Notes under the pieces: model-generated
The model's database searches: none
Seen by the model: only the letters and a program-made list of their open reading frames with translations
What the model was told of the DNA's origin: nothing
Assembly: GCA_900317845.1 (NCBI GenBank)
Contig: ONII01000005.1
Location: 1 to 64,000 of the forward strand
Origin: an uncultured Bacteroidales bacterium
GTDB taxonomy: Bacteria; Bacteroidota; Bacteroidia; Bacteroidales; UBA932
Direction of reading: 5' to 3'
DNA length: 64,000 nt
In this document: one piece after another, positions 7,107 through 37,463 of the stretch
Layout of the letters: every line of letters begins with the position of its first letter
Position numbering within the stretch: the stretch's first letter is position 1
Translations under genes and position numbers: made by a program

Positions 7107-7119
7107 TGCACTATCGACT

Positions 7120-11884: not shown

Positions 11885-13645
11885 ATGAAAAGACTCTTAA
11901 CGCTTTTGGCTCTGTTGCTCCCGGTGGTTGCCGGGGCACAGGGCCTTACCATTACCCATCTGAGTGAAACCCACAGTATGGTGCAGGTGAGCGGTCACAA
12001 CCGCTACATCCTGCTCCCCGTGCAGGAAACGGCCCAAGAGGCTGTTGTAAAGGTGTTGTCTAACGGGACAGTTGTCCTCAAGGCCAATGTTTCCCTGGCT
12101 ATTGACAAAACCGACTACCTGGTTCCGCTGGACCTGGGTGAGTGGAACGGCAGCAGCATCCTGCTGGACATCACCATGCGTCAGGGCCGCGGCGTGCGCC
12201 GGGATCCTTCGGACGATGTGTGCTGGAGCGAGATGACCACAGCCTCCGCTTTCAACTTTGCCAACAAGGAGAAGAAATACCGTCCTACTTACCACTTCTC
12301 TCCCGACTGGGGCTGGATGAACGACCCCAACGGCATGGTGTACAAGGACGGAGAATGGCATCTTTTCTTCCAGTACAACCCGTACGGCAGCTTCTGGGGC
12401 AACATGCACTGGGGACACGCCGTTTCCAAGGATCTGGTGCACTGGGAGAATCTGGGCATTGCCCTGGCTCCGGACGATTTGGGCGCCATTTTCAGCGGCA
12501 GCGCCATTGTGGACAAAGAGAATGTGGCAGGTTTCGGCCGCAATGCCATCATTGCCATGTACACCTCCGACGGCGACAGCCAGACCCAGAGTATTGCTTA
12601 CAGTAACGACAATGGCCGCAGCTTCACCAAATATGCCGGCAACCCGGTAATTATGGCGGAAGACACCCGGGATTTCCGCGATCCCAAGCTGTTCTGGGAC
12701 CCCCAGAGCAAGCAGTGGAAGGTGATTCTGGCCGCCGGACAGGAAGTGCAGTTCTACAGCTCCGACAACCTCAAGGACTGGACCTACGACAGCAGTTTTG
12801 GCCTTGCCTATGGCAACCACAACGGCGTTTGGGAGTGCCCGGACCTGGTTCGCCTGCCCTTCGAGGGCAAGGACAAGTACGTGCTCATCCTCAACATCAA
12901 TCCCGGCGGTCCCTTCGGCGGCAGCGCAACGCAGTATTTCGTGGGCAGCTACGACGGCAAGACCTTCAAGTGCGACGACCTTCCCACCGTTACCCGCTGG
13001 ATGGACTATGGCAAGGACCACTACGCCACGGTTACCTGGAGCAACGCCCCGGATAACAGGACCGTAGCCATTGCCTGGATGAGCAACTGGCAGTATGCCA
13101 ATTCCGTCCCCACCACCCAGTTCCGCAGCGCCAACTCCGTCCCGCGTGACCTGAGCCTCATCCGCAGGGGCAAGGAAGTCCTCCTGAAGAGCACCCCTTC
13201 CCCGGAAATGGAAGCCCTGCGCGGCACGCCCGTTCAGTATAGCCTCTCCACCGCCCCGGTAGAGCTGTTCGACACACCGCAGCGTGCCTATGAGCTGGTG
13301 ATCCGCTTCAATCTTCCCAAGAAGGAGGATGTCACCTTCGTCCTGTCCAACGAGACCGGCGAGCAAGTGGTCTTTTCCTATAACGCCGCGGTGCAGACCT
13401 TCTCCATGGACCGTCGCGGCAGCGGCACCGTGAAGTTCTCCAAGTCCTTTGCAGCGGTTACTACCGCTCCCACCACCGTGGGCGGCAAGATGGAGCTCCG
13501 TCTCCTGGTGGACAGCGCCAGCATCGAGGCCTTTGGCGAAGACTTCTGCATGACCAACCTGGTGTTCCCCGCCTCCCCTTATAACATCCTTAAAATGTAC
13601 GGCAACACCAAGGCCGACGTAACCCTTTATCCGATTGCAAAATGA
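11885..13645 (+). CDS. Periplasmic GH32 fructanase (exo-levanase/inulinase/invertase type)
   Basis: The 586-residue product has a Sec signal peptide with a VAGAQ cleavage region and no lipobox, so it should be periplasmic. An N-terminal domain of about 110 residues precedes the GH32 five-bladed propeller. The propeller holds the canonical GWMNDPNG nucleophile motif (D147), FSGSA, FRDPKLFW (D266) and WECPDL (E318). The C-terminal beta-sandwich ends with the SIEAFG segment typical of GH32. It probably releases fructose from oligosaccharides delivered by SusCD. The 3' end overlaps the permease ATG by 4 bases, indicating translational coupling. Confidence 0.93.
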   Translation: MKRLLTLLALLLPVVAGAQGLTITHLSETHSMVQVSGHNRYILLPVQETAQEAVVKVLSNGTVVLKANVSLAIDKTDYLVPLDLGEWNGSSILLDITMRQGRGVRRDPSDDVCWSEMTTASAFNFANKEKKYRPTYHFSPDWGWMNDPNGMVYKDGEWHLFFQYNPYGSFWGNMHWGHAVSKDLVHWENLGIALAPDDLGAIFSGSAIVDKENVAGFGRNAIIAMYTSDGDSQTQSIAYSNDNGRSFTKYAGNPVIMAEDTRDFRDPKLFWDPQSKQWKVILAAGQEVQFYSSDNLKDWTYDSSFGLAYGNHNGVWECPDLVRLPFEGKDKYVLILNINPGGPFGGSATQYFVGSYDGKTFKCDDLPTVTRWMDYGKDHYATVTWSNAPDNRTVAIAWMSNWQYANSVPTTQFRSANSVPRDLSLIRRGKEVLLKSTPSPEMEALRGTPVQYSLSTAPVELFDTPQRAYELVIRFNLPKKEDVTFVLSNETGEQVVFSYNAAVQTFSMDRRGSGTVKFSKSFAAVTTAPTTVGGKMELRLLVDSASIEAFGEDFCMTNLVFPASPYNILKMYGNTKADVTLYPIAK

Positions 13646-14793
13646 ACAAGAAACTGCAACTGATACCGGTGATGCTCTGCTTCTTTGCCATGGGGTTCGT
13701 GGACCTCGTGGGCATCGCCTCCAACTATGTGCAGCAGGATCTGAACCTGTCAGACTCCGCCGCCAATATCTTCCCGTCGCTGGTCTTCTTCTGGTTCCTC
13801 ATCTTCTCCGTTCCCACGGGCATCCTGATGAACCGCATCGGCCGTAAAAACACCGTGCTCCTGAGCCTGGTGGTAACGGTGATTTCCCTTATCCTGCCCA
13901 TCTTTGGTGAGAGCTACGGCCTCATGCTGGCCGCTTTCTCCCTGCTGGGCATCGGCAACGCCCTCATGCAAACCTCGCTGAACCCGCTCATCACCAATAT
14001 CATCAAAGGGGATAAGCTGGCCAGCACCATGACCTTCGGTCAGTTTGTGAAGGCCATTGCTTCCTTCATGGCTCCGTACATTGCCATGTGGGGCGCCACT
14101 GCCGCCATGCCGTCCTTCGGCCTGGGTTGGCGGGTGCTGTTCCCGGTGTATGGCATTATCGGCATCCTTGCGGCCCTGTTCCTGTCCCTCTCCCCCATCG
14201 AGCGGGAGCAGGTGGCAGACAAGGCTTCCGGCTTTGTGGCTTGCTTCAAGCTCCTGGGGAAACCCATCGTCCTTCTGAGTTTCCTGGGCATCATGTGCCA
14301 TGTGGGCATTGACGTGGGCACCAATACCACGGCTCCCAAGCTCCTGATGGAACGCGTGGGCATGACCCTCACGGAAGCCGGTTTTGCTACCAGCCTGTAC
14401 TTTATTTTCCGTACCATCGGCTGTCTGAGCGGCTCGTTCATCCTGTCCAAGTTCAGCCACCGGAAGTTCTTCCTCTTCAGCGTGGTCCTCATGGCCCTGT
14501 CCATGTGCGGCATGTTCTTTGGCACCACCAAAGCCGTCCTGTATGTGGCCATCGCCCTGGTAGGTTTCGGTAACTCCAACATCTTCTCCATCGTGTTCTC
14601 GCAGGCCCTGCTGGCCGTTCCCGAGAAACAGAACGAGGTGAGCGGCCTCATGATCATGGGCCTGTTCGGCGGTACCGTATTCCCGCTCCTGATGGGCTTT
14701 GCTTCCGATGCTGTCGGTCAGGCCGGCGCCATCGCCGTAATGGCCGTAGGTGTTGTGTATCTGTTCACTTATCTGAGTAAAGTTGGTAAATAA
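13642..14793 (+). CDS. Major facilitator superfamily sugar permease, probably fructose
   Basis: The 383-residue polytopic protein has about 12 hydrophobic helices. The MFS loop motif between helices 2 and 3 reads MNRIGRKNT. It resembles the FucP/glucose-galactose symporter branch. Its place between the periplasmic fructanase and the fructokinase indicates uptake of free fructose across the inner membrane, as proposed for the permease in the B. thetaiotaomicron levan locus. The start codon overlaps the GH32 stop by 4 bases, and the kinase begins 2 bases after its end. Confidence 0.85.
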   Translation: MNKKLQLIPVMLCFFAMGFVDLVGIASNYVQQDLNLSDSAANIFPSLVFFWFLIFSVPTGILMNRIGRKNTVLLSLVVTVISLILPIFGESYGLMLAAFSLLGIGNALMQTSLNPLITNIIKGDKLASTMTFGQFVKAIASFMAPYIAMWGATAAMPSFGLGWRVLFPVYGIIGILAALFLSLSPIEREQVADKASGFVACFKLLGKPIVLLSFLGIMCHVGIDVGTNTTAPKLLMERVGMTLTEAGFATSLYFIFRTIGCLSGSFILSKFSHRKFFLFSVVLMALSMCGMFFGTTKAVLYVAIALVGFGNSNIFSIVFSQALLAVPEKQNEVSGLMIMGLFGGTVFPLLMGFASDAVGQAGAIAVMAVGVVYLFTYLSKVGK

Positions 14794-14795
14794 TT

Positions 14796-15665
14796 ATGAG
14801 TAAATTCGTTATAGGTATCGGGGAAGCGCTGTGGGATATGCTTCCCGAGGGAAAGAAGCTGGGGGGCGCACCCGCCAACTTCGCTTATCATGCCAGCCAG
14901 TTCGGCCTGGAAGGTCTTGCCGTGAGTGCTATCGGCCAGGACAAGCTGGGCGAGGAAATTGTGGAAGCCCTGGAGGAGCATCATCTGCCCTACCACCTGG
15001 ACCGCGTGGAATACCCTACCGGCACCGTGCAGGTAAGCCTGGACAGCCGCGGCGTTCCGCAGTACGAGATTAAAACAGGCGTTGCCTGGGACAACATCCC
15101 GTACACCAAGGAACTGGCAGAACTGGCCAAACAGTGCCAGGCCGTTTGCTTTGGTTCCCTGGCCCAGCGCAGTCCGGTCTCGCGGGAGAGCATCGGCCTG
15201 TTCCTGGATGCCGTACCGGAAGATTGCCTCAAGGTGTTTGACATCAACCTGCGCCAGGACTTTTACAGCAAGGAAGTGCTGGAGGCCTCTTTCCGCCGTT
15301 GTGACATCCTGAAAATCAACGACGAAGAGCTGGTGGTGATGGCCCGGCTGTTCAATCTGCCCGGCCTGGCCCTGGAAGAGAAATGCCGTTACCTGATCAA
15401 GGAATATCAACTCAAAATGCTCATCCTCACCTGCGGCGTGAATGGCAGCTACGTCTTCTACGAAGGCGGCATGTCGTTCCTGGACACCCCTAAGGTGCAG
15501 GTGGCGGACACCGTTGGTGCAGGCGACTCCTTCACCGGTGCGTTCGTTGGCTCCCTCCTCACGGGAAAACCCGTCACGGAAGCCCACGAGACTGCCGTCA
15601 AGGTATCGGCCTTTGTATGTACCCAAAGCGGTGCCATGCCCATCGTTCCGGATAATCTCAAGTAA
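14796..15665 (+). CDS. Fructokinase, PfkB/ribokinase family
   Basis: The enzyme phosphorylates cytoplasmic fructose with ATP. The 289-residue product opens with VIGIGEALWDMLPEG and GGAPANFAYHASQFG, the sugar-binding signature of PfkB fructokinases. It carries the catalytic-base/anion-hole motif GAGDSFTGAFVG near the C-terminus. Length is typical. It lies in the fructan operon directly between the sugar permease and the hybrid regulator, whose ATG follows its stop without a gap. Whether phosphate goes to C6 or C1 cannot be read from sequence; C6 is usual for this branch. Confidence 0.9.
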   Translation: MSKFVIGIGEALWDMLPEGKKLGGAPANFAYHASQFGLEGLAVSAIGQDKLGEEIVEALEEHHLPYHLDRVEYPTGTVQVSLDSRGVPQYEIKTGVAWDNIPYTKELAELAKQCQAVCFGSLAQRSPVSRESIGLFLDAVPEDCLKVFDINLRQDFYSKEVLEASFRRCDILKINDEELVVMARLFNLPGLALEEKCRYLIKEYQLKMLILTCGVNGSYVFYEGGMSFLDTPKVQVADTVGAGDSFTGAFVGSLLTGKPVTEAHETAVKVSAFVCTQSGAMPIVPDNLK

Positions 15666-18260
15666 ATGAATAAAAAGCTTTTCCTCCTCATATCAGTGGT
15701 ACTTCTTCTCACCGGTTGTTCCGGTGGGAAGAAGTCGCTGGTTATAGGCGTATCCCAGTGCAGCGACGATATCTGGCGCACTAAACTGAACGATGAACTT
15801 TCGCTCGCAGCCCGTGTGGAGGGCGTGACGCTGCGTTTTTCATCGGCCGATGACGACAGCCAGAAGCAGATGGCCCAGATCCGCCGCTTTGTGGCGGAAG
15901 GCGTGGACCTTCTCATCATCTCGCCCAACCAGACGCACACCATTACCCCTGCCGTAGAAGAAGCTTTTGACGCCGGTATCCCGGTCATCCTGTTCGACCG
16001 GAAAATCGACTCGCACAAATACACCGCCTTCATTGGCGCCGACAATGTGGAAATCGGGCGCATCATGGGGCATTATATGGCCGATTTCCTGGGCAAGAAG
16101 GGCCATGTGGTAGAGATTCCGGGGCTGGAGGGTTCCTCCCCTGCCGATGACCGCCACAAAGGCTTTGCAGAGGCACTGGCGCAGTATCCCGGCATGACGC
16201 TCACCGTGGCGCCGTACGGCGGCTGGCTCAAGGAAGGCGGCTACGATGCCATGGAAGAAGTGATGGCCCGCGGTATCCGGCCCAACGCCGTCTTTGGCCA
16301 GAACGACCGCATGGCGCGGGGTGCCCGGGAAGCGCTGGGCAACCCTGCCGATATAGCCTTCTTCGGGGTGGATGCCCTGCCGGAAGCCGGCCTGCAGGAA
16401 GTGATTGACGGAGAGCTCACCGCCTCCTACCTGTACCCCACCCGCGGCGACCTGGTGATGGAACTGGCCCTGAATATTCTTCGCGGAGCGCCCTTCCAGC
16501 GGGAGAACCTGCTGGAAAGCGCCCTGGTAGACAGCCGCAACGCCCGCATCCTCAAGATGCAGGAAGCGGAAGTGGCCAATCAGCGGGCCCATGTGGAGAA
16601 CATCAACGCCCGGCTGGACACCTTTCTGATGGAATACAACACCCAGCGCATCATTATGTGGCTGGTGATTGCCTTTGCCCTTCTGGTGGTCCTCATTGCC
16701 GCCCAGTCCTACTGGGGCTACATACGCACCCGGGAGCTCAAACAGAAAGTGGAGGAAAGCACCGCCGCCAAGCTGCGCTTCTTCACTCAGGTGAGCCACG
16801 ACCTCCGGACGCCGCTCACCCTGGTGGCCGGTCCGCTGGAGCATGTCCTGGAAGGCCCGCTGTCAGCGGACCAGCAGCAAACGCTCCTGATGGCGCGCCG
16901 CAATGTGACCGTTCTCCAGCAACTGGTGAATAACATCCTGGATTTCAGAAGGATAGAGAGCGGAAACCGTCCGCTTAACGCCTCCCGCTTTGACCTCCCC
17001 GCCGCCGTGCAGGAATGGATGGGCGGGTTCAGCGGCACCTCCCAAAGCCTTACCTACGAAGGCCTCCCGGCCCTTACCGTCGAGGCCGATATGCGCCTTG
17101 TGGAGCGGGTGCTGTTCAACCTCCTGGGCAACGCCATCAAGCACACCCGGCCGGACGGGCACATCACTGTTTCCGTGAAGCAGGAAGGAGCATCGGCCCT
17201 CCTTTCCGTTGCCGATGACGGAGAGGGCATCCCGCCGGAAAAACTGCCGTATATCTTCGAGGAATTCTACAAAGCCAATGAGTCCAGTAACGGTACCGGC
17301 ATTGGCCTGGCCCTGATTAAAGCCGTAGCGGAGCTGCACAAGGGCAGCGTGAGCGTGGAAAGCACGCTGGGCAAGGGCTCCACCTTTACCCTGCGCCTTC
17401 CGCTGGTGCAAAAAGGCGCCAGCGTGAGCGAAGGCAAAGCGGCATCGGCCTATACGGAGCGCTACGAGGAGACCTATCTCCGCGAGGACAGCCACAAGCA
17501 GGAGGCCGCCAGCCGGGTGAGCGAAAGCGACCGTCCCACCATCCTGGTGGTGGACGACAACGCAGACCTTCGCCGCTTCATTGGCACACTGCTGGAAGGC
17601 GAATACCGCATTCTGAGCGCCTGCGACGGCCGGGAGGCCTTGGAAAAAGCCACGCGCGAACTGCCGGACCTGGTGGTATCGGACGTGATGATGCCCGTCA
17701 TGGACGGCCTGGAACTTTGCAAGGCGCTCAAGGGGCAGCTGGCCACCAGCCACATCCCCGTCATCCTTCTTACCGCCAAATCGCTGGAAGACCAGCGCGC
17801 GGAGGGCTACGATTCCGGTGCCGATGCCTACATTTCCAAGCCCTTCAGCGAACGGGTGCTGCTTTCGCGTATCGGCAACCTGCTCAAGAGCCGCATCCTG
17901 CTCAAGGAGCATTACCTGGAAACCGGCGAAAGCGCCGCCCGGCCGCAGGAGAATGACTTCCTTTCCCGCTTCCGTGCGCTGGTCCGCGAGCATCTGGGAG
18001 ACGAAAACCTGAGCGTGGAGCAGCTGGGGTCCGACCTGGGACTCTCGCGCGTGCAACTATATAGGAAAGTGAAAGCCCTTACCGGCTACTCCCCCGTTGA
18101 GCTGGTGCGCATTACGCGCCTGAAAGCGGCGGAACAGCTGCTCAAGACCACGGACAAAACCGTAGCGGAGGTCGCCTATGCCGTTGGCTTCGGGACACCG
18201 TCTTACTTCAGCAAATGCTACAAGGAACTCTTCGGCCATGTCCCGGGAGAAGAACGCTAG
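15666..18260 (+). CDS. Hybrid two-component system regulator with periplasmic sugar-binding sensor
   Basis: The 864-residue chain contains, in order: a periplasmic binding protein-like sensor (about 25-300), a membrane helix (about 329-349), HisKA with H378 in VSHDLRTP, an HATPase (N489; G-box GTGIGL 543-548), a receiver with D673 in SDVMMPVMDG and K725 in SKPF, and an AraC-type DNA-binding domain (about 770-860). This is the fused sensor/regulator used by Bacteroidota to switch on glycan loci. A type-I binding-protein sensor is the form that binds fructose in BT1754 of B. thetaiotaomicron. The N-terminus looks like a lipoprotein signal (LLLTGC, Cys18) rather than a plain membrane anchor. Confidence 0.93.
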   Translation: MNKKLFLLISVVLLLTGCSGGKKSLVIGVSQCSDDIWRTKLNDELSLAARVEGVTLRFSSADDDSQKQMAQIRRFVAEGVDLLIISPNQTHTITPAVEEAFDAGIPVILFDRKIDSHKYTAFIGADNVEIGRIMGHYMADFLGKKGHVVEIPGLEGSSPADDRHKGFAEALAQYPGMTLTVAPYGGWLKEGGYDAMEEVMARGIRPNAVFGQNDRMARGAREALGNPADIAFFGVDALPEAGLQEVIDGELTASYLYPTRGDLVMELALNILRGAPFQRENLLESALVDSRNARILKMQEAEVANQRAHVENINARLDTFLMEYNTQRIIMWLVIAFALLVVLIAAQSYWGYIRTRELKQKVEESTAAKLRFFTQVSHDLRTPLTLVAGPLEHVLEGPLSADQQQTLLMARRNVTVLQQLVNNILDFRRIESGNRPLNASRFDLPAAVQEWMGGFSGTSQSLTYEGLPALTVEADMRLVERVLFNLLGNAIKHTRPDGHITVSVKQEGASALLSVADDGEGIPPEKLPYIFEEFYKANESSNGTGIGLALIKAVAELHKGSVSVESTLGKGSTFTLRLPLVQKGASVSEGKAASAYTERYEETYLREDSHKQEAASRVSESDRPTILVVDDNADLRRFIGTLLEGEYRILSACDGREALEKATRELPDLVVSDVMMPVMDGLELCKALKGQLATSHIPVILLTAKSLEDQRAEGYDSGADAYISKPFSERVLLSRIGNLLKSRILLKEHYLETGESAARPQENDFLSRFRALVREHLGDENLSVEQLGSDLGLSRVQLYRKVKALTGYSPVELVRITRLKAAEQLLKTTDKTVAEVAYAVGFGTPSYFSKCYKELFGHVPGEER

Positions 18261-18278: not shown

Positions 18279-18309
18279 TTTGTGATTCTGAGAATTATTC
18301 GTATCTTTG
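18279..18309 (+). promoter_or_regulatory. Promoter of the rplU-rpmA(-serS) operon
   Basis: TTTG (18279-18282), 19 bases, then TATCTTTG (18302-18309): a full match to the Bacteroidota housekeeping promoter. The leader to the rplU ATG is about 90 bases. It contains a GC-rich hairpin (GCCC/GGGC, around 18351-18363), a possible site of ribosomal-protein autoregulation. Confidence 0.8.
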
Positions 18310-24505: not shown

Positions 24506-24537
24506 CAAATATAATAAATAATTTTGTGCATTTCCAA
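24506..24537 (-). promoter_or_regulatory. Promoter of the EF-hand/ATPase pair
   Basis: On the minus strand TTG (24537-24535), 21 bases, TATATTTG (24513-24506). It faces away from and overlaps the rpsU promoter at 24523-24553, so the two may compete for polymerase. Predicted leader is about 30 bases. Confidence 0.55.
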
Positions 24538-24553
24538 TTTTTTTCTACCTTTG
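24523..24553 (+). promoter_or_regulatory. Promoter of rpsU
   Basis: TTTG (24523-24526), 19 bases, TACCTTTG (24546-24553): full consensus. Predicted leader is about 35 bases and ends in a strong Shine-Dalgarno sequence. Confidence 0.8.
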
Positions 24554-27435: not shown

Positions 27436-27507
27436 GTTTGGCACAGCACTTGCATTAAGCTAAACCGGTTAATAGTTGGTTTAGTTAATAAATAGGTAAA
27501 AGAAAAA

Positions 27508-27537
27508 CCGGAGCCCTTCTCAGGACTCCGGCTTTTC
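27508..27537. terminator. Bidirectional terminator between lptB and the lipoprotein gene
   Basis: CCGGAG (27508-27513) and CTCCGG (27526-27531), with an inner CCT/AGG pair, form a hairpin. It is flanked by an A-rich run on the left and CTTTTC on the right, so it can serve both convergent transcripts. Confidence 0.8.
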
Positions 27538-27554
27538 ATTCTGTGCACGCAGGC

Positions 27555-30500
27555 TTAGCGGGCGCTACGCACCTTAGCAGCTGCACGCTGTGCAGGGGCC
27601 ACCTTGCCATTGACCGCGGCATTGTTGCCGGACTGGGCACGCTGGCCGCCAGCCTTGGCCTTGAAGATGTTCACCTGCTTCTGGACCTTGGCCGGTTTCA
27701 CGGCCTTGGCAGCCTTAATCGCCTTCTGGCCCGCCTTCACATTGTTCTTCTGCAGGGCCTTCTTGATGGCGATGTCGGCAGCTTCCGGTGTAGGATAGAC
27801 GGCAGAATCCACCAGCAGGATAGAGCGCAGGGAGAACAGGCTGCCTATCTTATTATCACCATTATAGATGGGGAACGAGATACCATCGAAGGTAATGCCA
27901 TACTTTTCAATGTAGCTGCCGTACGGAGCCAGAGCCACAATGCCATCGGACACCCAGGAGCCTATCAGGCAATAATTTACATTGTCGTAGGAATCGCCAT
28001 TCGTGGTCAGGTAGTCTACCTTCATGACACAACCGGCAAGGTCCCCGTCCGTAATTTCGCGTTCAACCGTGTGGCTGTAGATATAGCCATTGTACAGGTC
28101 GAAGACAACGGCATCGTTCACCTCATATAATTCCCCAAAGATATAGGACAGGCCGGAAATCTCCAGGAGGTCTTCTCCATCGGCGTCTTCCGTATCCTTT
28201 ACAGTGAGCGGGCCAAAGTACTGGCGCTCGGTGAGCCACTCCTGGGTTTCATAATCCTGCAACAGAGCATAACCGTCCCAATTGGTACCGGTAAGCTGAT
28301 CCATGGTAAGTTCTGCAGTGAAGTCGTCGTCCGTATAAGGAAGTTGCAGCGGATCAAGCTCCGTGCCGGGCTCTAACCAGGTCAGGATGTCCGGGATAGT
28401 GGATACCGCGCTATTGGTAACATAATCACCGTTTGCCAGGGTAATGAAAGTGAACATGACAAAGAGCGACTTCCCGTTATTTCCGGGCTTCACATTGAGC
28501 TGACCATTGGCAACTTCCGCCTTGAAGATGGCTGCAGGGCTGGACTCGCTGAGCGGGTAGAACTTGTAATCGCTGTCGATACCCTGAAGGACGATACCGT
28601 CGGTAGCCGTGCCGGCAACCACCTGCTCAGGGAGAACCAGGCGGCCCTTCTCGAAGTTGGCCACAACGTTGTAGCCTTCTTCCTGACCGGCAATGCCTGT
28701 AATGGCATAGGTCTTCCCGTTCTCTTTTTCGGAAACGGTGTACACCTTTGCGCCCATCTGCCACTGGCCAAGGTAATCGGCATAGGCAGCGTTATAGTCT
28801 TCCTCTACAACGGCCCCCTTCTGGATGGTGCTGCCGGAGAACCACACAGCCGCGTCATAGTTGTACTCCTCGAGGTCTTCGTTGTAGTAAACATAGGCAA
28901 ATCCCTCAAGCGGACCATACTCATCGGATTCGGGACGGAGATCTGCCGTGCCATCCTCATAGAAGCCCAGCGTAGCGATGAGCGGAGTCTCCATGAACTC
29001 GCTGTTGTCATAGAAGCCGCCGAACATGCTTGTGTACACAGCCACAAAGTAATCCTGATAGGTGACGCCTTCATTGGTCCACTGGGAAAGTACCTGGTTG
29101 GAGAAGGTAACTTTACCGGTTTCCGCGTTGTACTCGGCAACGGCCAACTGATCGCCGTACGGGTCGATTCCGCTGATATTCTCTACGCTATAGCTTACGC
29201 CGGCTTCTTTCTCCACGAAGTTCCAGATTTCAGAGATACCGCTCTCACTTGTGAAAGTCCACTCGCCCAGGAAGTCTGCGTAGGCGGCTTTCTTGTGCGG
29301 ATCCTCCTTTACGAACTCCTTCATATAAGCCTTTCCGGTGAAGTTGGCATATTCATCCAGGCCTACCGCAATGATGTAATAGCGGCCATAGTCCAGTTCG
29401 GCAAAATAGGACTCAAAGTTGCCGGTATAGGTGACATTGGCATAAACCGAATCATACGATCTGCCATAGATAAGCATGTACTGGGAGATGGTGTACTGGG
29501 CGTAGTTGGCCTGATAGTCACCCGCCCAGGCATAGAGGGCTTCCTTGCTGCTGAAATCCGCATCCAGTTTATCTGCAGAGAAGACATTGAAGGTATAGCG
29601 GCCGGGGTCGGCCGTCTTCATACCCACAATCTCGGGATAACCTTCTGCGGCATAGGGAGAGTTGCTACCACCGTAGTACAGTTCCCAATCCGTGGCTTCC
29701 GACATGCTGAATTCGGTCACGCTTTCCACCAGGACGTTGACCACGGTGCTGTTATCTTCCTGCGGAATGTTGTTGATGGCCCAGCCCGTGAAGCTGACAT
29801 ACTTGCCTTCCAGGCTTTCCAGCTTAAGGCTCTCTGCCGGTTCCACAGGAACGAACGTGCGCGGGAAATCAGCGATACCTTCAATGACATAGGCGCCATC
29901 CACAGCCTTCACCACGCCGAAGTTGGAGGTGAAATAGTTGTAGTCGCCCCAGTCGTACCAGGAGTAGTGCTCCTTGGGATCCACCACGGCGGGAGCAACA
30001 GCTGTGTTCGCGATAACGTTTTCTGCAAGCAGTTTATTGAGCCCATAACCGGTCTCGCCGATGATACCGGTGATGTCGTACACCTTGCCAGGCTCTACGG
30101 CAATGCCGTCCATATTCATCTTGAACGTACCGTCCGTGATAATGGCCGTTTGACCGGAAGCAGCCACAACGGTGATGCCGTACACGGTCACCTCCGTACC
30201 CTGCGGCGTATAGTAGGCCGACTCAAGGTCTGTCGTGCCCGTGGAGACCGGTGCCTGAACAATGAGCAGGCTCTTGATATCTTCGCCTGTAGCCTCGTCC
30301 TTGATGGAAATGAGGGCCGAACGATACGCGTTGGCTTCATTGGGCTTTACGATAAACGACACATAGTCCTCGAACAGGGCCTTGGTGGCAGGATCCACGC
30401 TCACCCACTCCTGGGCTTCTTCTTCAATCTCAATCTTGTAGGCCACGTTGGAAGCGATGAATGCGCCGATGGTTCCGCCTTCTACCGGCACCACGCTACC

Positions 30501-31394
30501 GTCCAGGGCGGCAAGAAGGGTGGTAGAGGAGAACACCAGACCGCGGATGTCGGTCTTGCCCTTGCCATTGGAGGCAAATACCAGAATCTTATAGGTTTCG
30601 TTGCCGTTGGCGCTCACGTTTTCAATGGCGATGACGCCTTCGTTATAGTCTTCCTCAATGAGACGGGCCTCGAAGCCGGGCGTTACCGAAAGAAGACCCA
30701 CTTCGATGTTATCTCCGGGCTGCGCGCCCACAATCGTGTACTCGATGTAGGCGGTGTCGCCCATCAGGATTTCCAGGCCTTCTTCGGGCAGAGCGAACTG
30801 CAGATAGAAGGGGTTTTCCTTGGCCAGGACGATGGTAGAGCCGTCGGCCAGTTTGATGGTAACGGTGTCAAAGGTCTCTTCCAGGGCGAAAGCGGGTACA
30901 TACTCGCCGCTCACCGGAACAGCCACCCAATTGCTGCCATCGTAGGAGACATACCACAGGCCGTCTTCGATCTTGAAGGCGGGGCTGATGCCCACCACCG
31001 GGTACGGAACGCCGGCTGCATCCTTGGCCACCTCTCCGTTGATGGTCCACACATAGGTACCTTCCACTTCTGCGATACCCACAACGGGAGCAACGGCATC
31101 CTTACCATTGGTAAGCGTTGCCTGCTTTCCGTCGGAGAAGGTAATGACATATCCGTCTGCCGTGGTAGTGACGGAATTCACGTACACCTTGCCCTGCAGG
31201 GCAGTAATGAGGGTCTGCAGGCCGGGAACAGTCTCATCGTTGAGTTTTTTCACGGCCTCTTCCAGCTTGGCGACGCGGGAACTGAGGTCCTCCACCTTCT
31301 CCTTGAGGGAAGACAGATCCTGTTCCTTGGCGCAACCAACCGCCAACAGGGCTACCAGCACCGTTGACGCAAGAATCCATAATGCTTTTTTCAT
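27555..31394 (-). CDS. Large DUF4988-type lipoprotein with basic C-terminal tail
   Basis: The 1279-residue product has a lipobox (LLAVGC, Cys21). A short coiled coil follows (about 25-55, SLKEKVEDLSSRVAKLEEAV). Next is the SVTTTADGYVITFSDGKQATLTNGKD module that I recognise as DUF4988-like. BACON/Ig-like beta segments follow (for example VSFIVKPNEANAYRSALISI near 365), and the rest is a long repetitive beta-rich region. The last 75 or so residues change sharply to Lys/Ala/Arg/Gln-rich sequence (AGQKAIKAAKAVKPAKVQKQ). Location is probably the cell surface; ligand unknown. It is a paralogue of the gene at 31675-35028. Together they form a lipoprotein pair next to a recombinase. Confidence 0.8.
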   Translation of the reverse strand: MKKALWILASTVLVALLAVGCAKEQDLSSLKEKVEDLSSRVAKLEEAVKKLNDETVPGLQTLITALQGKVYVNSVTTTADGYVITFSDGKQATLTNGKDAVAPVVGIAEVEGTYVWTINGEVAKDAAGVPYPVVGISPAFKIEDGLWYVSYDGSNWVAVPVSGEYVPAFALEETFDTVTIKLADGSTIVLAKENPFYLQFALPEEGLEILMGDTAYIEYTIVGAQPGDNIEVGLLSVTPGFEARLIEEDYNEGVIAIENVSANGNETYKILVFASNGKGKTDIRGLVFSSTTLLAALDGSVVPVEGGTIGAFIASNVAYKIEIEEEAQEWVSVDPATKALFEDYVSFIVKPNEANAYRSALISIKDEATGEDIKSLLIVQAPVSTGTTDLESAYYTPQGTEVTVYGITVVAASGQTAIITDGTFKMNMDGIAVEPGKVYDITGIIGETGYGLNKLLAENVIANTAVAPAVVDPKEHYSWYDWGDYNYFTSNFGVVKAVDGAYVIEGIADFPRTFVPVEPAESLKLESLEGKYVSFTGWAINNIPQEDNSTVVNVLVESVTEFSMSEATDWELYYGGSNSPYAAEGYPEIVGMKTADPGRYTFNVFSADKLDADFSSKEALYAWAGDYQANYAQYTISQYMLIYGRSYDSVYANVTYTGNFESYFAELDYGRYYIIAVGLDEYANFTGKAYMKEFVKEDPHKKAAYADFLGEWTFTSESGISEIWNFVEKEAGVSYSVENISGIDPYGDQLAVAEYNAETGKVTFSNQVLSQWTNEGVTYQDYFVAVYTSMFGGFYDNSEFMETPLIATLGFYEDGTADLRPESDEYGPLEGFAYVYYNEDLEEYNYDAAVWFSGSTIQKGAVVEEDYNAAYADYLGQWQMGAKVYTVSEKENGKTYAITGIAGQEEGYNVVANFEKGRLVLPEQVVAGTATDGIVLQGIDSDYKFYPLSESSPAAIFKAEVANGQLNVKPGNNGKSLFVMFTFITLANGDYVTNSAVSTIPDILTWLEPGTELDPLQLPYTDDDFTAELTMDQLTGTNWDGYALLQDYETQEWLTERQYFGPLTVKDTEDADGEDLLEISGLSYIFGELYEVNDAVVFDLYNGYIYSHTVEREITDGDLAGCVMKVDYLTTNGDSYDNVNYCLIGSWVSDGIVALAPYGSYIEKYGITFDGISFPIYNGDNKIGSLFSLRSILLVDSAVYPTPEAADIAIKKALQKNNVKAGQKAIKAAKAVKPAKVQKQVNIFKAKAGGQRAQSGNNAAVNGKVAPAQRAAAKVRSAR

Positions 31395-31449
31395 ATTATA
31401 ATAAAGAATAATACATTACTAACCCGGGTCCATGCGGAGACAAACGGTA

Positions 31450-31480
31450 CAATTTTAAGAAGATTTTTTTTAAAATCAAA
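31450..31480 (-). promoter_or_regulatory. Probable promoter of the 27555-31394 lipoprotein gene
   Basis: On the minus strand TTTG (31480-31477), 19 bases, TAAAATTG (31457-31450): one mismatch to TAnnTTTG. Leader about 50 bases. The 280-base gap 31395-31674 otherwise holds only the terminator of the upstream gene and AT-rich sequence. Confidence 0.5.
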
Positions 31481-31624
31481 ACAGTACCCTACCAGATGAA
31501 ATCAGCTTTTAACGCAGTAAAATGGCACATTCTTTGGCTTTTATAATTTCCGCCTTGAGTTTCACTTACAGATTGTAAGGAAGTCGGGCACGATTTCCAT
31601 AAATCAAAAGTGCCGAACAAAAAT

Positions 31625-31648
31625 GAGGCTGACTCGAAAGTCAGCCTC
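31625..31648 (-). terminator. Terminator of the collagen-like lipoprotein gene
   Basis: GAGGCTGACT and AGTCAGCCTC form a perfect 10-bp stem with a CGAA loop. On the minus strand it is followed by a U-rich run (ATTTTTGTT). It lies 26 bases beyond the stop at 31675. Confidence 0.85.
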
Positions 31649-31674
31649 AAAAAGAGAAGGTAAATTCGCTTCGA

Positions 31675-34600
31675 TTACTTGGCCAACCGGGCACGGAACT
31701 CTTTTAGAGTGATGATCCTGGCGTCCTTGGCGGGAGCTTCTACCTCCTGCATGGATTTCAGTTCCACCTTGTTCATCTTCTTGGGAGCAGCAGCGGGGGC
31801 ATTTGCCTTTTCAAGGGTATTGGGCAGATCAAATACAATGGCATCATCTCCTTCCCAATCCCAGATATCGGTATAGTTACCCACCAGACCGAACTTGGCG
31901 TAGAGCGTCTCGTTGTCATAAGAACACGTGCCGGGCACTACAGAGTAGGTACCGTCTTCGTTCTTAACAAAGGAGGCCAGCTTGTCATCAGTAATCCATT
32001 CTACACCTTCTTCGGCAGGCTTACCTACCAGATAGTAGCGATACTTGTGGCCGTCATTGGTATAATCTTTACCACAATTCTGATAGCCGTAGATATCCAC
32101 ATTGCCCTTAGCCATGTCATAGTAGGCATATAGAGTAATATCCAGGGTGGGATGCAAACCGGTGATGGTGTATTCACGGTCGCTGTTCTCTACAGGGGTG
32201 ATGGTGATCACACTGTCTCCCAGTTTCCAGCTGCCACCCCAAGCCAGATAGGCCTCGGAAGGATCGGTGCGGGTACCATAGCCAACATAGTACCAGTTAT
32301 TCACTTCATTAAATTCGCCAGTTTCCACTTTAAAGGTATTAAGTGCCAGGTACCAGTATCCCTCATAACCTTCAGCAACATTCAGGGGAGTAAAACGGAA
32401 TCTGTCATTATTCATTAACTGAATACTGCCGATGTCCTGTCCGACTTGTTCATAACTGACTTCAACTTCTACACCTCCATTTTGCTTCCAGTAACCATTC
32501 ATGTTATCTAGAACCTGGACATAATAGCCATCTTCCCGTTGTTCGGGTGTATACATATCCTGGCTGGGAATAATCACAAGACCCTTCTTCTCGTCGTACT
32601 TGAATTCAAGTTCGGCATTCCAATCCCAGAAAAGACCGCGGGCGGTATAAGTCTGGCCGGCTTCTTTCTGTTCAAGTTTAATTACGCCATTATAAGTCTG
32701 CCAGTATCCCAGATAATTCTCATACGGCACAGGCTCGCGCTTGAAGTTCTGGAGGAGATACTTGCCGGTAGGGAAGCCGTTCTCGCCCAGTTCAATGGCC
32801 AAGACAGCCAGATTATTGGCAAGGTCTGCGTTGTAGAAACTATACTTCCGTTCGCCGGTAAAGGAGTACCAGCTCAAAATGTCTTCCATGGTGTAATATC
32901 CGACATTAGAAAGGACATTATAGACAACCATATCGTCCATCATGGATTGTACATCCTCGGGAGTGACTTCTTTTTCCTGGTCAAATGCCCAGTACCAATA
33001 ATGCAGGTTTTCCGGAGCAGTAACAGTTGCCGTCCAATACTTGTCGTTTTCGTAGCTGATGGTAGGATTGGCATCCAATTCCATCACCTGGACATGCGTG
33101 GCGATAACATGAATGGCATATACCTCAGGATCCGTTTCATCCTGGATATAATACAGCTTGTATGAAGGCATGAGGACGTTCTTGCCCACCAACTCATCCA
33201 GAGCGAAGGCAGCATCGTCAATGACGAAGGTATACTTCTCGTTGAGAGGACTCACAATGAAGAATTCCTCACCTTCTTTCTGCAGTTTACCATAAAGGAT
33301 AGTAGGTCTTCTGTTCTGATATTGACTCATCTGCTGGTACCTCGACTGATAATTGTATGCCACAGGTTCTACTTCAGAAGAAGCATCCTGCACAGTTACA
33401 TCAGTAAGCCATACATCATTATAACCGCCTTTACTTACAGCAAGTTTTTTACCGACAAAACTGTAAACCTTACCAGCCTCCACCTCTTTGTCCAGCTTAT
33501 CAAGAACGAGGATATGAGAGCCTGAAGTCGTATTCTCCGCGTCAATCACAACAGCCATATTCTTACTGGCAGCGATGACGGTAAGGTTGTTGGCCTTTAC
33601 ACCTTCTGTAACGTCTGCGAAATTATACTTAACATTGTATATGGCGGTAGCTTTGTCGGTAGCCGGCTCCTGGAGGACGTAGAATTCCTTGGCCACTCCA
33701 CCCCAATCGTCGTAGATTACCCGTACAAAGCCATCGCGGTATACATTGGTCTCATTGGGCGCGATGGTGATGGTACCAGTCCACTCGTAGTTGGCCTTGG
33801 TTTTTGCAGCCGTAATCCAGTCCACGGTGGTTACCACGGTAAACGGATCGTTGGACTTTACTTCGAAGGCATATTCGCCACCCGCTGCAGCTTCCAGGGC
33901 TACGTCAAATACGGCGTCGATGGTCTTGGAGGTAACAACAATCACCTTGGTGTCCGTCTTGCCCTTGCCATTGGCGGCATGAATGAAAATCTTATATTGG
34001 CCATCGCCCCAGTTGCTGGATGTGATTTCAATCACACCCTTAGTAGCATCGGCCTCATCGGGAACCACCTTTGATTGCTCGAAGGCCCAATAATTCGGCG
34101 TAATATTCAGGATATCTACCAGGAGCTCATCTTCTGCAGAGGCGCCCTTGACGACATAGTCGAATTTGAGGGTTTCCCCGGAGTAAATATCCGTCGTTTC
34201 CTGCTGGGGAGTAATGACCAGGCAGAAGACCTGCTCCTTAGGGATGACGATGGTGGATTCATCGGCGAAGGTGAATACATAGGCGACCTCGGTTTCGGTG
34301 ATGATCACATACTCCGGAACAGAGCCAGTTACAGGAACTGCAGCCCAGGTGGTACCGCCGTCTACGGAAACCTCCCAAACACCATCGGTGATACGGAACT
34401 GCGGGGCTACGGCACCGGCACCGTCTTTACCATCTTTACCGTCGGCACCATCCTTGCCGTCCTTACCGTCGACACCGTCCTTGCCGTCCTTACCGTCTTT
34501 ACCGTTGGCGCCGGTGACAGGGATGGGCTTCTGGTTGGCATCCAGGAGGAGTTCGCCGTTCACGGTCCAGCAGTAAACACCGTCTACGAGCTTGACACCG

Positions 34601-35028
34601 ATAACGGGAGTCTGGCCGTCGGCACCGTCTTTACCATCTTTACCATCGGTACCATTGGCGCCATCCTTGCCGTCTTTGCCATCGGCACCGTTGACACCGT
34701 CTTTACCGTCCTGGCCGTCCTTACCGTCGACACCGTCCTTGCCGTTGGTGAGGGTGGCTTTGGTTCCGTCGGAGAAGGAAATTACATAACCGTCGGCCGT
34801 AGGGGTGACGGAAGAAATGCTCACCTGCTTCTGCAGCGCTTCAATGAGGCTCTTCAGACCAGGAATGGTGGTGTTGTTCAAGTCCTGAACGGCTTTCTCC
34901 AAAGCGGTTACACGCGTGTCCAGGCCATCAATTTTTTTGTTGAGAGCAGTATCGTCATACTTCTCGCAACCCCATGCAAACAGACCGACAACAGCGGCTG
35001 CAAGCAAAGCTTTAATTGATTTACTCAT
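31675..35028 (-). CDS. Surface lipoprotein with DUF4988-type N-terminus and collagen-like repeats
   Basis: The 1117-residue product has a lipobox (FAWGC, Cys21), a coiled coil (about 28-55), and the same SVTPTADGYVISFSDGTKATLTNGKDG module as its neighbour. Two blocks of Gly-x-y collagen-like triplets follow (residues 96-139 and 173-205, mostly GKDG, GADG and GVDG). BACON/Ig-like domains and a long beta-rich region complete it. Collagen-like blocks may form trimeric stalks projecting the protein from the surface. The C-terminus is mildly basic (KDARIITLKEFRARLAK). I found no TAnnTTTG box between its ATG and the inverted repeat at 35116. A promoter inside the adjacent recombinase segment would face it only after inversion. 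Confidence 0.82.
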   Translation of the reverse strand: MSKSIKALLAAAVVGLFAWGCEKYDDTALNKKIDGLDTRVTALEKAVQDLNNTTIPGLKSLIEALQKQVSISSVTPTADGYVISFSDGTKATLTNGKDGVDGKDGQDGKDGVNGADGKDGKDGANGTDGKDGKDGADGQTPVIGVKLVDGVYCWTVNGELLLDANQKPIPVTGANGKDGKDGKDGVDGKDGKDGADGKDGKDGAGAVAPQFRITDGVWEVSVDGGTTWAAVPVTGSVPEYVIITETEVAYVFTFADESTIVIPKEQVFCLVITPQQETTDIYSGETLKFDYVVKGASAEDELLVDILNITPNYWAFEQSKVVPDEADATKGVIEITSSNWGDGQYKIFIHAANGKGKTDTKVIVVTSKTIDAVFDVALEAAAGGEYAFEVKSNDPFTVVTTVDWITAAKTKANYEWTGTITIAPNETNVYRDGFVRVIYDDWGGVAKEFYVLQEPATDKATAIYNVKYNFADVTEGVKANNLTVIAASKNMAVVIDAENTTSGSHILVLDKLDKEVEAGKVYSFVGKKLAVSKGGYNDVWLTDVTVQDASSEVEPVAYNYQSRYQQMSQYQNRRPTILYGKLQKEGEEFFIVSPLNEKYTFVIDDAAFALDELVGKNVLMPSYKLYYIQDETDPEVYAIHVIATHVQVMELDANPTISYENDKYWTATVTAPENLHYWYWAFDQEKEVTPEDVQSMMDDMVVYNVLSNVGYYTMEDILSWYSFTGERKYSFYNADLANNLAVLAIELGENGFPTGKYLLQNFKREPVPYENYLGYWQTYNGVIKLEQKEAGQTYTARGLFWDWNAELEFKYDEKKGLVIIPSQDMYTPEQREDGYYVQVLDNMNGYWKQNGGVEVEVSYEQVGQDIGSIQLMNNDRFRFTPLNVAEGYEGYWYLALNTFKVETGEFNEVNNWYYVGYGTRTDPSEAYLAWGGSWKLGDSVITITPVENSDREYTITGLHPTLDITLYAYYDMAKGNVDIYGYQNCGKDYTNDGHKYRYYLVGKPAEEGVEWITDDKLASFVKNEDGTYSVVPGTCSYDNETLYAKFGLVGNYTDIWDWEGDDAIVFDLPNTLEKANAPAAAPKKMNKVELKSMQEVEAPAKDARIITLKEFRARLAK
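34414..34512 (-). repeat. Collagen-like coding repeat, second block
   Basis: Degenerate 9-base units encode Gly-Lys-Asp and Gly-x-Asp triplets (residues 173-205). Codon choice varies between units, but the nucleotide identity is high enough for slippage or unequal exchange with the first block. Confidence 0.8.
34612..34743 (-). repeat. Collagen-like coding repeat, first block
   Basis: Encodes Gly-x-y triplets of residues 96-139 (GKDG, GQDG, GVNG, GADG, GTDG). It is separated from the second block by a WTVNGE-containing module of about 33 residues. Confidence 0.8.
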
Positions 35029-35089
35029 GCGAATAATTTAGTTAGTGGTTAATGATTGGCAGTTTTCCGATCTCGGAGTGGACCATTTT

Positions 35090-35121
35090 TTTGTATATAA
35101 ACTTCTTATTTACTATTTTAA
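35090..35121 (+). promoter_or_regulatory. Probable promoter of the serine recombinase
   Basis: TTTG (35090-35093), 20 bases, TATTTTAA (35114-35121), one mismatch from TAnnTTTG. The -7 box overlaps the left inverted repeat (35116-35126), so bound recombinase could block its own promoter. Confidence 0.5.
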
Positions 35122-35126
35122 GGGTC
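35116..35126 (+). repeat. Left inverted repeat flanking the recombinase segment
   Basis: TTTTAAGGGTC is the exact reverse complement of GACCCTTAAAA at 35816-35826. It lies 40 bases before the recombinase ATG. Confidence 0.7.
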
Positions 35127-35127
35127 A

Positions 35128-35138
35128 TTAAAACGATA
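35128..35138 (+). repeat. Left copy of an 11-bp direct repeat flanking the recombinase
   Basis: TTAAAACGATA, identical to 35821-35831. With the preceding CTATTTTAA it forms an imperfect palindrome, like a two-half-site serine recombinase target. Confidence 0.65.
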
Positions 35139-35165
35139 GCACGAATGCGGACCGCTAGAAGCAAA

Positions 35166-35777
35166 ATGAAAAACTATGGGTATATCCGTGTCAGCACTGA
35201 TAAACAGACGGTTGAAAACCAGCGGTACGAGATTAGCCAGTTCTGCAAACAGCAAAATTTGGACATAGACGGATGGATTGAGGAGACCATTTCAGGCACC
35301 AAGTCCTATGATAAGAGGGCCTTGGGAAAACTGTTGAGGAAGGTCAAGTCCGGCGACCTGATTATCTGCTCCGAATTGTCCCGGCTGGGACGAAACCTGT
35401 TCATGATCATGGAAATTCTGAGCGTCTGTATGAAAAAGGGCTGCCGCGTGTGGACCGTAAAAGACGGATACCGGCTGGGAGACGATATCCAGTCCAAGGT
35501 GCTGGCCTTTGCCTTTGGCCTCTCGGCCGAGATTGAAAGGAACCTCATCAGCCTTCGGACAAAAGAAGCACTGATGAGGTTAAAGGAGGAAGGCGTAAGC
35601 CTGGGAAGGCCTCCGGGAGCGCATAACAAGGACTACCGCCTGGATAAAAAAGCGGCCTATATTACCCGTATGCTGGAAAATGGCGTCAGTAAAAGGGAGA
35701 TTGCAAAGCGCTGCGGCGTGTCACCCAGCACATTATATCGTTGGCTGAACCAGCATAAAGAGCAAAAAATTTTGTGA
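35166..35777 (+). CDS. Serine recombinase / DNA invertase (Mpi/Hin-like)
   Basis: The 203-residue product has the resolvase/invertase catalytic domain: YGYIRVSTDKQT with the nucleophile Ser9, the SRLGRN arginine motif near 70, and the long E-helix (FAFGLSAEIERNLISLRTKEAL). A C-terminal helix-turn-helix follows (NGVSKREIAKRCGVSPSTLYRW). Length and layout match small invertases such as Mpi of Bacteroides fragilis, which flips surface-antigen promoters. The frame is open from 35052, but the ATG at 35166 gives the family start. Codons are more AT-rich than in the flanking housekeeping genes. Short inverted and direct repeats bracket it, with a rightward promoter right after the stop. Confidence 0.9.
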   Translation: MKNYGYIRVSTDKQTVENQRYEISQFCKQQNLDIDGWIEETISGTKSYDKRALGKLLRKVKSGDLIICSELSRLGRNLFMIMEILSVCMKKGCRVWTVKDGYRLGDDIQSKVLAFAFGLSAEIERNLISLRTKEALMRLKEEGVSLGRPPGAHNKDYRLDKKAAYITRMLENGVSKREIAKRCGVSPSTLYRWLNQHKEQKIL

Positions 35778-35801
35778 TTTGTAATTTTTTGCGTATGTTT
35801 G
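35771..35801 (+). promoter_or_regulatory. Rightward consensus promoter at the inner edge of the right inverted repeat
   Basis: TTTG (35771-35774), 19 bases, TATGTTTG (35794-35801): full consensus. The -33 lies on the recombinase stop region and the -7 is 14 bases from the repeat at 35816. In this orientation it drives only the short stretch up to the hairpin at 35857. Inversion between the repeats would put it at about 35141-35171 on the minus strand, facing the collagen-like lipoprotein gene. Confidence 0.75.
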
Positions 35802-35815
35802 TGTGTGACTATATC

Positions 35816-35826
35816 GACCCTTAAAA
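35816..35826 (+). repeat. Right inverted repeat flanking the recombinase segment
   Basis: GACCCTTAAAA, exact reverse complement of 35116-35126. The surrounding sequence TATCG ... CGATA (35812-35831) adds outer dyad symmetry. Confidence 0.7.
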
Positions 35827-35831
35827 CGATA
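35821..35831 (+). repeat. Right copy of the 11-bp direct repeat
   Basis: TTAAAACGATA, identical to 35128-35138 and overlapping the right inverted repeat. The two copies are 693 bp apart. Confidence 0.65.
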
Positions 35832-35856
35832 CACCTGCGTACTCCGCATCACTAAG

Positions 35857-35880
35857 AAAGCCTGGTTTCCCAGGCTTTTT
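35857..35880. terminator. Terminator between the recombinase segment and the S41 protease
   Basis: AAAGCCTGG (35857-35865) pairs with CCAGGCTTT (35870-35878), then T residues. It ends rightward transcripts from 35771 and probably also the protease operon coming from the right. Confidence 0.8.
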
Positions 35881-35885
35881 GTTCT

Positions 35886-37463
35886 TTATAAGATTTCTTG
35901 AACTGTGTTGTCTACCGGTAAATAATACTTGTAGAAGGCATTTTCTCCCAATTTGGAATAGCGGGCGATGAGCGCCTGAAGCTGCGGCACCAGGTAAGAC
36001 GCACTCTGGTCCCACTCCGCCTCCGTACAGGCAATGCCGTCCTGCCGCTTGGCATAGGCCGGGAATTCCACCTTTAAGTTGAGCCCGGACAGGAAACGGT
36101 CCATGGCGGGATACGAGTCTATCTCCCGGAGCCGGGAAGCGTACTTGTCAAAGACATAGGAGGCATAGCGCATCTGGGTGGCTTTTCGGTTGCAGGCCAG
36201 ATAGAAAGCCGTGGCCCGCGTCGTGTCCATAGGCACAAAGATATCCGGCATGATGCCGCCACCGCCATAGACCTTGCGTCCCTTACGGGTGTAATGGACG
36301 TCCGAAGTGTCCAGTTTTACGCTGTCTGCGCTGAACACTTCTCCGTCTGCATAACGGTTGTAAATGTCATAGGCATAGTCCCTTTCGCTGGAGTAGGGCT
36401 TCTGGATACAGCGGCCGCTGGGGGTGTAATAGCGCGCCACGGTGAGCCGCACGCCGGAATTGTCGTTGAAGAAGAACGGCTCCTGCACCAGGCCCTTGCC
36501 AAAGGAGCGGCGCCCCACCACAGTTCCGCGGTCGTTGTCCTGGATGGCTCCCGCAAAGATTTCGCTGGCCGATGCCGAATTTTCGCTGATAAGGACCGTA
36601 AGGCCCATGCTCTGGAACATGCCCCGGCCGTCGGCCTTATATACTTCGCGCGCGCGATGGAGGCCTTCGATATACACGATGGTATCCCCGGGCGAGAGGA
36701 AGTCGTTGGACAGCAGCAGTGCCTGGTCCATGTAGCCGCCGGTGTTGTCACGGACGTCAAAAATCAGGTGCGTCATCCCTTGCTCCATGAGTTGGAGCGT
36801 GGCCTCGTGGCACTCCTTGAAGGTGGTGCGGGAGAATTTTCCCAGCCTCAGGTAGCCAATGGAGTCCCGGATGATGAAGGCGGCATCTACGCTGTGTACG
36901 GGTATTTTTCCGCGGGTAATCTCGAAGGGAATCTCCTCCGTGCCCCGCTTGACCGTAACGGTGACCTTGGTCCCTGCAGGGCCTTTCATGCGTCGCACCA
37001 TGCTGTCCTGCGGGAACTTGACGCCGGCAATCACTTTATCGTCCACCTTCAATAGGCGGTCGCCCATCTGCAGGCCCACCTTTTCCGACGGACCGCCGGC
37101 AATCACTTCCAGCACAATGGCGGTGTCGTTGGGCACATTGAACTGAATGCCGATACCGTCGAAATTGCCCGCAAGCTCCTCCTCCGAATCACTGAGCTGC
37201 TGGGGCGGCAGGTACACCGAATGCGGATCCAGCTTGGAGAGGGCCGCCACGATGGCGGCATCCGTCATCCCCTCCCGGTTGAGGGTGTCCACATAGTTCT
37301 TTTCCACCATGTCCAGCACCAGATTGAGCTTGCGCCAATCTGCATACTTGGTGCGCAGCAGATGCTGGGCTTCCCGGTAGCGGACAATCCACAGTGTAAT
37401 AAGGGCACCGATGACGATGCCCAGAATCACTTGTACCAGTTGAATGAGGGTTTGTTTTTTCAT
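35886..37463 (-). CDS. C-terminal processing (S41) peptidase with PDZ domain
   Basis: The 525-residue product starts MKKQTLIQLVQVILGIVIGA, an N-terminal membrane anchor. A PDZ domain follows (about 85-170, DGIGIQFNVPNDT). The S41 protease domain has DVRDNTGGYMDQALLLS and the catalytic SENSASASEIFAGAIQDN with nucleophile Ser, and the Lys in RRSFGKGLVQ. A C-terminal extension continues to the end. It cleaves periplasmic protein C-termini in the CtpA/Prc manner; the substrate is unknown. The frame is open upstream to 37580, but that part overlaps the deaminase gene. The ATG at 37463 overlaps the deaminase stop by 4 bases and is the natural start. Confidence 0.93.
   Translation of the reverse strand: MKKQTLIQLVQVILGIVIGALITLWIVRYREAQHLLRTKYADWRKLNLVLDMVEKNYVDTLNREGMTDAAIVAALSKLDPHSVYLPPQQLSDSEEELAGNFDGIGIQFNVPNDTAIVLEVIAGGPSEKVGLQMGDRLLKVDDKVIAGVKFPQDSMVRRMKGPAGTKVTVTVKRGTEEIPFEITRGKIPVHSVDAAFIIRDSIGYLRLGKFSRTTFKECHEATLQLMEQGMTHLIFDVRDNTGGYMDQALLLSNDFLSPGDTIVYIEGLHRAREVYKADGRGMFQSMGLTVLISENSASASEIFAGAIQDNDRGTVVGRRSFGKGLVQEPFFFNDNSGVRLTVARYYTPSGRCIQKPYSSERDYAYDIYNRYADGEVFSADSVKLDTSDVHYTRKGRKVYGGGGIMPDIFVPMDTTRATAFYLACNRKATQMRYASYVFDKYASRLREIDSYPAMDRFLSGLNLKVEFPAYAKRQDGIACTEAEWDQSASYLVPQLQALIARYSKLGENAFYKYYLPVDNTVQEIL

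Follow-up and report, generated by a model that had tools for sequence, protein, structure and literature searches.

The window, by which we mean the whole 64-kb stretch of Bacteroidales DNA analysed here, probably contains a self-contained, Hin-like ON/OFF promoter switch built around an Mpi-family recombinase, which would control the gene of a DUF4988/collagen lipoprotein and would be OFF as sequenced. From comparison of sequences, we assign this reading a probability of about 0.83. The parts of the locus are present at the positions given below, they are conserved, and a homologous arrangement occurs in a relative. That Mpi acts on these sites, that the segment inverts in cells, and that transcription of the lipoprotein gene ensues, we infer. 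The features are as follows.

35166..35777, + strand: mpi, encoding an Mpi-family serine recombinase of 203 aa (NF009949, PF00239).
35111..35138, - strand: left recombination site, TACTATTTTAA-GGGTCA-TTAAAACGATA when read on the + strand, with inverted core.
35804..35831, + strand: right recombination site, TGTGACTATAT-CGACCC-TTAAAACGATA.
35122..35820, no strand, about 700 bp: putative invertible segment, core to core (inverted core GGGTC/GACCC), containing mpi and the outward promoter.
35771..35801, + strand: outward promoter, TTTG-N19-TATGTTTG, matching the Bacteroidales consensus exactly, inside the segment near the right repeat and pointing right.
35855..35880, + strand: terminator-like hairpin (11-pair stem plus T-tract) facing the promoter in the present orientation.
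31675..35028, - strand: DUF4988/collagen-repeat lipoprotein gene (PF16378 and PF01391), the proposed target.
27555..31394, - strand: paralogous DUF4988 gene (PF16378) with a promoter-like site of its own.
31450..31480, - strand: promoter-like site of the paralogue, TTTG-N19-TAAAATTG, with one mismatch and with the spacing counted by eye.
27502..35901, no strand: 8.4-kb block holding both lipoprotein genes and the mpi switch, its borders being the ends of an alignment.

In the proposed mechanism, Mpi would recombine the sites at 35111-35138 and 35804-35831, which have the inverted cores GGGTC/GACCC, and would flip the segment of about 700 bp that carries mpi itself together with the outward promoter. 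In the sequenced, OFF state the promoter would fire into the terminator and the lipoprotein gene at 31675-35028 would be left without a promoter. In the flipped, ON state the order would become mpi, promoter, site, a leader of about 105 nt, and lipoprotein gene.

The mpi product scores 318.1 bits against NF009949 ("master DNA invertase Mpi family"), for which the curated cut-off is 272, and is thus a member of that family. It carries the Resolvase domain PF00239 and aligns with solved DNA invertases over most of its length. In the serine motif region YIRVST is aligned to YVRVST of 4m6f, and the serine of this motif is presumably the catalytic serine of the resolvase domain. Codon comparison with the locus of a sister species (L004) indicates that mpi is under purifying selection between the two (dN/dS 0.07, synonymous divergence 0.40). 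A longer protein, using the open frame upstream at 35052-35165, was considered and rejected; the ATG at 35166 is preferred as the start because dN/dS in that upstream frame is 0.77, on four changes. A second Mpi match was not found in the 2.4-Mb assembly from which the window derives. The first-pass annotation, made from the sequence of the window, had suggested that inversion would detach the recombinase from its own promoter; this suggestion gained no support, since upstream of mpi even the closest match to the promoter consensus has two mismatches at present and would have three in the flipped state.

The same annotation had described an exact inverted repeat bracketing the recombinase gene, and this was borne out: the 11-bp TTTTAAGGGTC lies at 35116-35126 and its reverse complement at 35816-35826. 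It had missed that a direct 11-mer, TTAAAACGATA, is also common to both sites (35128-35138 and 35821-35831) and has no further exact copy elsewhere in the assembly (39 contigs). The TTAAAACGATA halves are thus arranged directly and the cores are inverted, and both present sites are hybrids with differing half-sites. In the computed inversion a palindrome whose arms measure 11 bp, TATCGTTTTAA-TGACCC-TTAAAACGATA, arises at the right junction, and the remaining two half-sites are brought together at the left one. Of 20,000 dinucleotide shuffles of the flanks, 81 yielded an inverted repeat of 11 bp and 123 a direct repeat as long as TTAAAACGATA; with flanks of 500 bp the inverted repeat has p = 0.13 (60 shuffles). 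Taken alone, the 11-bp repeat is modest evidence and is not rare by itself, and for that reason the case for a switch rests on the comparison with relatives. Within the 2.4-Mb assembly, TAWCGACCCTTAAAA at no more than one mismatch occurs twice, both times at the mpi locus, a count that may leave diverged sites aside and that differs from the many genomic sites of a master invertase of the Bacteroides fragilis type. The 15-mer site is likewise present in this genome at the mpi locus only.

The outward promoter is an exact match to the full consensus, whose TAnnTTTG element is stated in the accessible text of PMC4747536, and its place just inside the right repeat agrees with what had been noted from the sequence at the outset. 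A TAnnTTTG-type promoter within inverted repeats, as in the invertible promoters of Bacteroidales, is therefore present at the locus. Exact consensus matches number three in the 64-kb window, against 0.43 expected from shuffles, the two others being at 18279-18309 and 24523-24553. The earlier claim that the promoter points into a terminator also held: the hairpin at 35855-35880 is one of three terminator-like sites found, against 1.2 in shuffles, and the stretch 35808-35890 folds with a z of -4.6.

The N-terminus of the lipoprotein encoded at 31675-35028 is lipobox-like, as judged by eye. On the strand of this gene, TTG does not occur within 35029-35115 and TAnnTTTG does not occur at one mismatch or fewer within 35029-35165; the first-pass annotation had maintained that both are lacking between the ATG and the left repeat. 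Matches to the whole promoter consensus with two mismatches occur further in, inside mpi. Computed core-to-core inversion of 35122-35820 brings the exact promoter to 35141-35171, facing the lipoprotein ATG at a distance of 112 bases. If transcription starts some 7 bases later, the leader would measure about 105 nt, and the position and leader length predicted previously are both reproduced. The gap between the two DUF4988 genes folds strongly (31560-31674, z -5.6).

An exact search for the extended site pattern TAWYGACCCTTAAAA covered 400 genomes of the genus, which had been taken from a larger set. The pattern was found in five, as inverted pairs in G000, G005, and G389 and singly in G343 and G417; one match was seen with the reversed pattern, which served as a control. 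An inverted pair lies at mpi in three of the five genomes, namely that of the window, that of the sister species (G005), and G389. The locus of G005 (L084) is 100% identical to L004, and G389 shares contig and coordinates with G061, the genome of L005/L183; L004 and L005 come from metagenome assemblies. The exact locus of the window was present in only two of the genomes searched, its own and that of the sister species, where the orientation is identical, with one genome compared per species. All 28 bases of the left site are unchanged between these two, the right site shows one difference in 28 bases (the edge base 35805), and the outward promoter is identical.

In L183, mpi (2885-3484) is followed on one strand by the site at 3694 (+), an OmpA-like gene (3887-5065), and a DUF4988/collagen gene (5172-8486). 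Two overlapping promoter-like sequences, each with one mismatch, lie between mpi and the site, and the one just before the site reads TTTG-N19-CATCTTTG. Flipping 35122-35820 would give the window this same succession of mpi, promoter, site, and surface gene. The second site of L183 is inverted and lies at 16587 (-), 12.9 kb from the first; adjoining it is a second cassette with an OmpA-like gene (15229-16407) and a DUF4988 gene (12174-15179), for which a promoter at up to two mismatches was not found in the 400 bases upstream. Here mpi and the promoter are outside the proposed invertible segment. The whole arrangement (L183:2885-16601) thus comprises a 12.9-kb segment with perfect inverted sites, at either end of which lies a cassette of an OmpA-like and a DUF4988/collagen gene; inversion of the segment would likely result in a two-way exchange of the surface cassettes behind a fixed promoter.

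In G343, a C-terminal fragment of mpi at a contig edge is followed by a promoter-like sequence with two mismatches, the site, an OmpA-like gene, and a DUF4988 gene. In L183, then, the core of the right site stands behind mpi and a promoter; in G343 the promoter-like sequence that precedes it is weaker. The single site of G417 has no close mpi beside it and was set aside as chance. Among the loci of the best 80 of 535 Mpi relatives, AACGACCCTTAAAA at one mismatch or fewer occurs only in L004 and L005, and the shorter GACCCTTAAAA at one mismatch occurs singly in four further Mpi loci. In a tree of the recombinases, for which 96 of 98 loci were kept after dropping the duplicates L084 (of L004) and L183 (of L005), the window enzyme groups with those of L004 and L005 in a single clade (support 0.85). 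By these comparisons, site and enzyme lineage go together.

An inverted copy was also sought in viral contigs, a collection that need not include this species, and the two inverted-junction patterns had no matches there; the 15-mer site gave 48 single matches, which were taken as chance. Since no inverted copy was found, we count inversion at this locus as inferred. Further points against the switch are the shortness of the exact repeat, the position of mpi outside the proposed segment in L183, the occurrence of the exact locus in only two of the genomes searched, and the four additional Mpi loci that carry GACCCTTAAAA singly at one mismatch. Alignment of homologous loci, which the first-pass annotation had proposed as a check, returned the same site in another species as an inverted pair near mpi and DUF4988/collagen genes, and in the sister species it returned the orientation already seen in the window. 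The proposal of an ON/OFF switch that is at present OFF is thereby supported in its parts, in its conserved sites, and in the layout of a relative, while the inversion itself was not seen. The reading as an invertible promoter is well supported because of the inverted pair in the relative, the conservation of the sites, and the promoter that the lipoprotein gene would gain on inversion.

The identical orientation in both species that have the locus, and the hybrid nature of the two sites with their differing half-sites, would also suit a relic: a switch that once flipped but has since become locked OFF, or inverts too seldom to matter, with mpi kept for another target. This is improbable, given that mpi has a dN/dS of only 0.07, that between the two species a single one of the 56 site bases has changed and the promoter is unaltered, and that the site, with one mismatch allowed, was found nowhere else in the genome. 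It is about equally improbable that Mpi serves as a master invertase in trans on other, diverged sites, with the local repeat as one target among them. The family is indeed named for the master invertase of B. fragilis, which acts on 13 regions (PMC4747536, accessible text), but in the present assembly the site motif occurs only at this locus, in a search that is blind to very different sites, and a second Mpi match was not detected.

A further alternative draws in part on the 8.4-kb block. At this position the block 27502-35901 is absent from the close relatives G063 and G064, in which its flanks are 58-87 bases apart. In G063 a relative of the lipoprotein is present elsewhere in the genome and there is no Mpi match; in G064 Mpi-family matches are found elsewhere, the best at 70%. 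This distribution fits gain or loss of the block as a unit. The missing block, together with the direct repeat TTAAAACGATA that also flanks the recombinase gene, might be taken to mean that the inverted repeats are due to chance and that the recombinase excises or resolves a small mobile cassette, with no phase switch involved. We regard this as very unlikely: the cores of the sites are in inverted and not in direct orientation, the unit that the repeats enclose is far smaller than the absent block, and L183 carries the site as two inverted copies that are separated by 12.9 kb and enclose surface genes. The invertible promoter switch is hence the reading that we retain in what follows.

Such a switch resembles that of Hin, the flagellar switch of Salmonella, in having the recombinase gene inside the inverted repeats, and in having an outward promoter inside the segment and a target outside it that shows no visible promoter. 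Recombinases are stated to lie occasionally within the invertible segment, with Hin named as a case (PMC5903667), and the orientation of the Hin segment is reported to govern the fljBA promoter (PMC9368917); Hin also has a recombinational enhancer bound by Fis (PMC3798978). The window differs from Hin in its family (Mpi), its site, its Bacteroidales promoter, and its lipoprotein target.

With the Mpi of B. fragilis the window protein shares the family NF009949, and it would share the inversion of promoters for surface structures. The B. fragilis enzyme inverts 13 regions (PMC4747536), or in the wording of PMC5903667 is the master of at least thirteen scattered regions, whereas in the window one local pair of sites was found, with mpi itself carried on the segment between them. 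Like the gene of the Bacteroides S-layer protein BT1927, which has an invertible promoter (PMC12548429), the lipoprotein gene would be a surface-protein gene under the control of such a promoter; its product is, however, a different protein, and the accessible text of PMC12548429 does not describe the BT1927 segment as containing a recombinase gene. DNA inversion at outer-membrane gene clusters is also described for the SusC/SusD shufflons of B. fragilis (Tsr0667; PMC4747536, accessible text). These employ another recombinase and have multiple exchange partners, unlike the single ON/OFF switch proposed here. A description of the present arrangement was not found in titles and the opening parts of abstracts. 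The locus would present a member of the Mpi family that apparently works locally, carried on the very segment that it would flip and beside DUF4988/collagen lipoprotein genes, in contrast to the distant master of many promoters described for B. fragilis in the sources just cited. It offers a directly testable pair of recombinase and site, and indicates at which places in other genomes comparable switches are to be expected.

More tentatively, the Mpi family in Bacteroidales might represent a repeated class of self-carried flip cassettes, placed between surface genes and provided with an outward promoter at the 3' side of mpi. In this scheme, one clade with one site would have two layouts, the ON/OFF flipping of the recombinase in the window and the 12.9-kb exchange past a fixed promoter in L183. 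Flips would moreover remake the sites of the window into a palindrome and another dyad, which could give unequal flipping rates; an effect of this remaking on switching rates is speculation. We consider this wider scheme possible, though on balance doubtful.

The loci bearing on it number 98, including at least two duplicates, and 80 of them have enough flank for a blastn repeat test. Inverted repeats across mpi (E < 0.01) were found at 13 of these 80; of 200 mismatched pairs used as controls, 6 gave such repeats. With its repeat of 11 bp, the window locus was flagged neither by this test nor by one that scored 73 loci for the best ungapped inverted repeat in their surroundings. In favour of the switch proposed for the window, its logic recurs with other genes in the same genus: in L093 and L274, mpi is placed between divergent genes that are SusC-like by their TonB plug domains and have inverted 5' regions. 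The one exact consensus promoter there lies 3' of mpi, and SusD-like partners were recognised by eye only. In L274 the arrangement of an mpi relative between divergent SusC-like genes extends over 1035-8402. A similar one, with the SusC-like genes assigned by eye and a promoter with one mismatch, occurs at L023:485-7872, where the -7 element is common to both arms and the -33 TTTG is found only on the mpi 3' side.

Among the loci with long repeats that were scanned for promoters, a promoter at no more than one mismatch lies 3' and not 5' of mpi in L023, L093, and L092, and this is not so in L044 and L022. In L092 the promoter is present and the arms are homologous in their coding parts only, which is weak evidence of a site. 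With a looser promoter pattern, a near-consensus match stands upstream, 5' of mpi, in L044 and L018, and in L094 and L007 such matches flank mpi on both sides. A general rule placing the promoter 3' of mpi was consequently trimmed, as L044, L022, L018, L094, and L007 deviate from it. Downstream of mpi in many Mpi relatives, among them L014, L024, L040, L042, and L074, and often near contig ends, lies a stretch encoding ...SPIEQSIKRKIE..GTPLKDWDI..., which we take to resemble the specificity regions of type IIG restriction-modification proteins; these stretches possibly reflect a shuffling of recognition domains.
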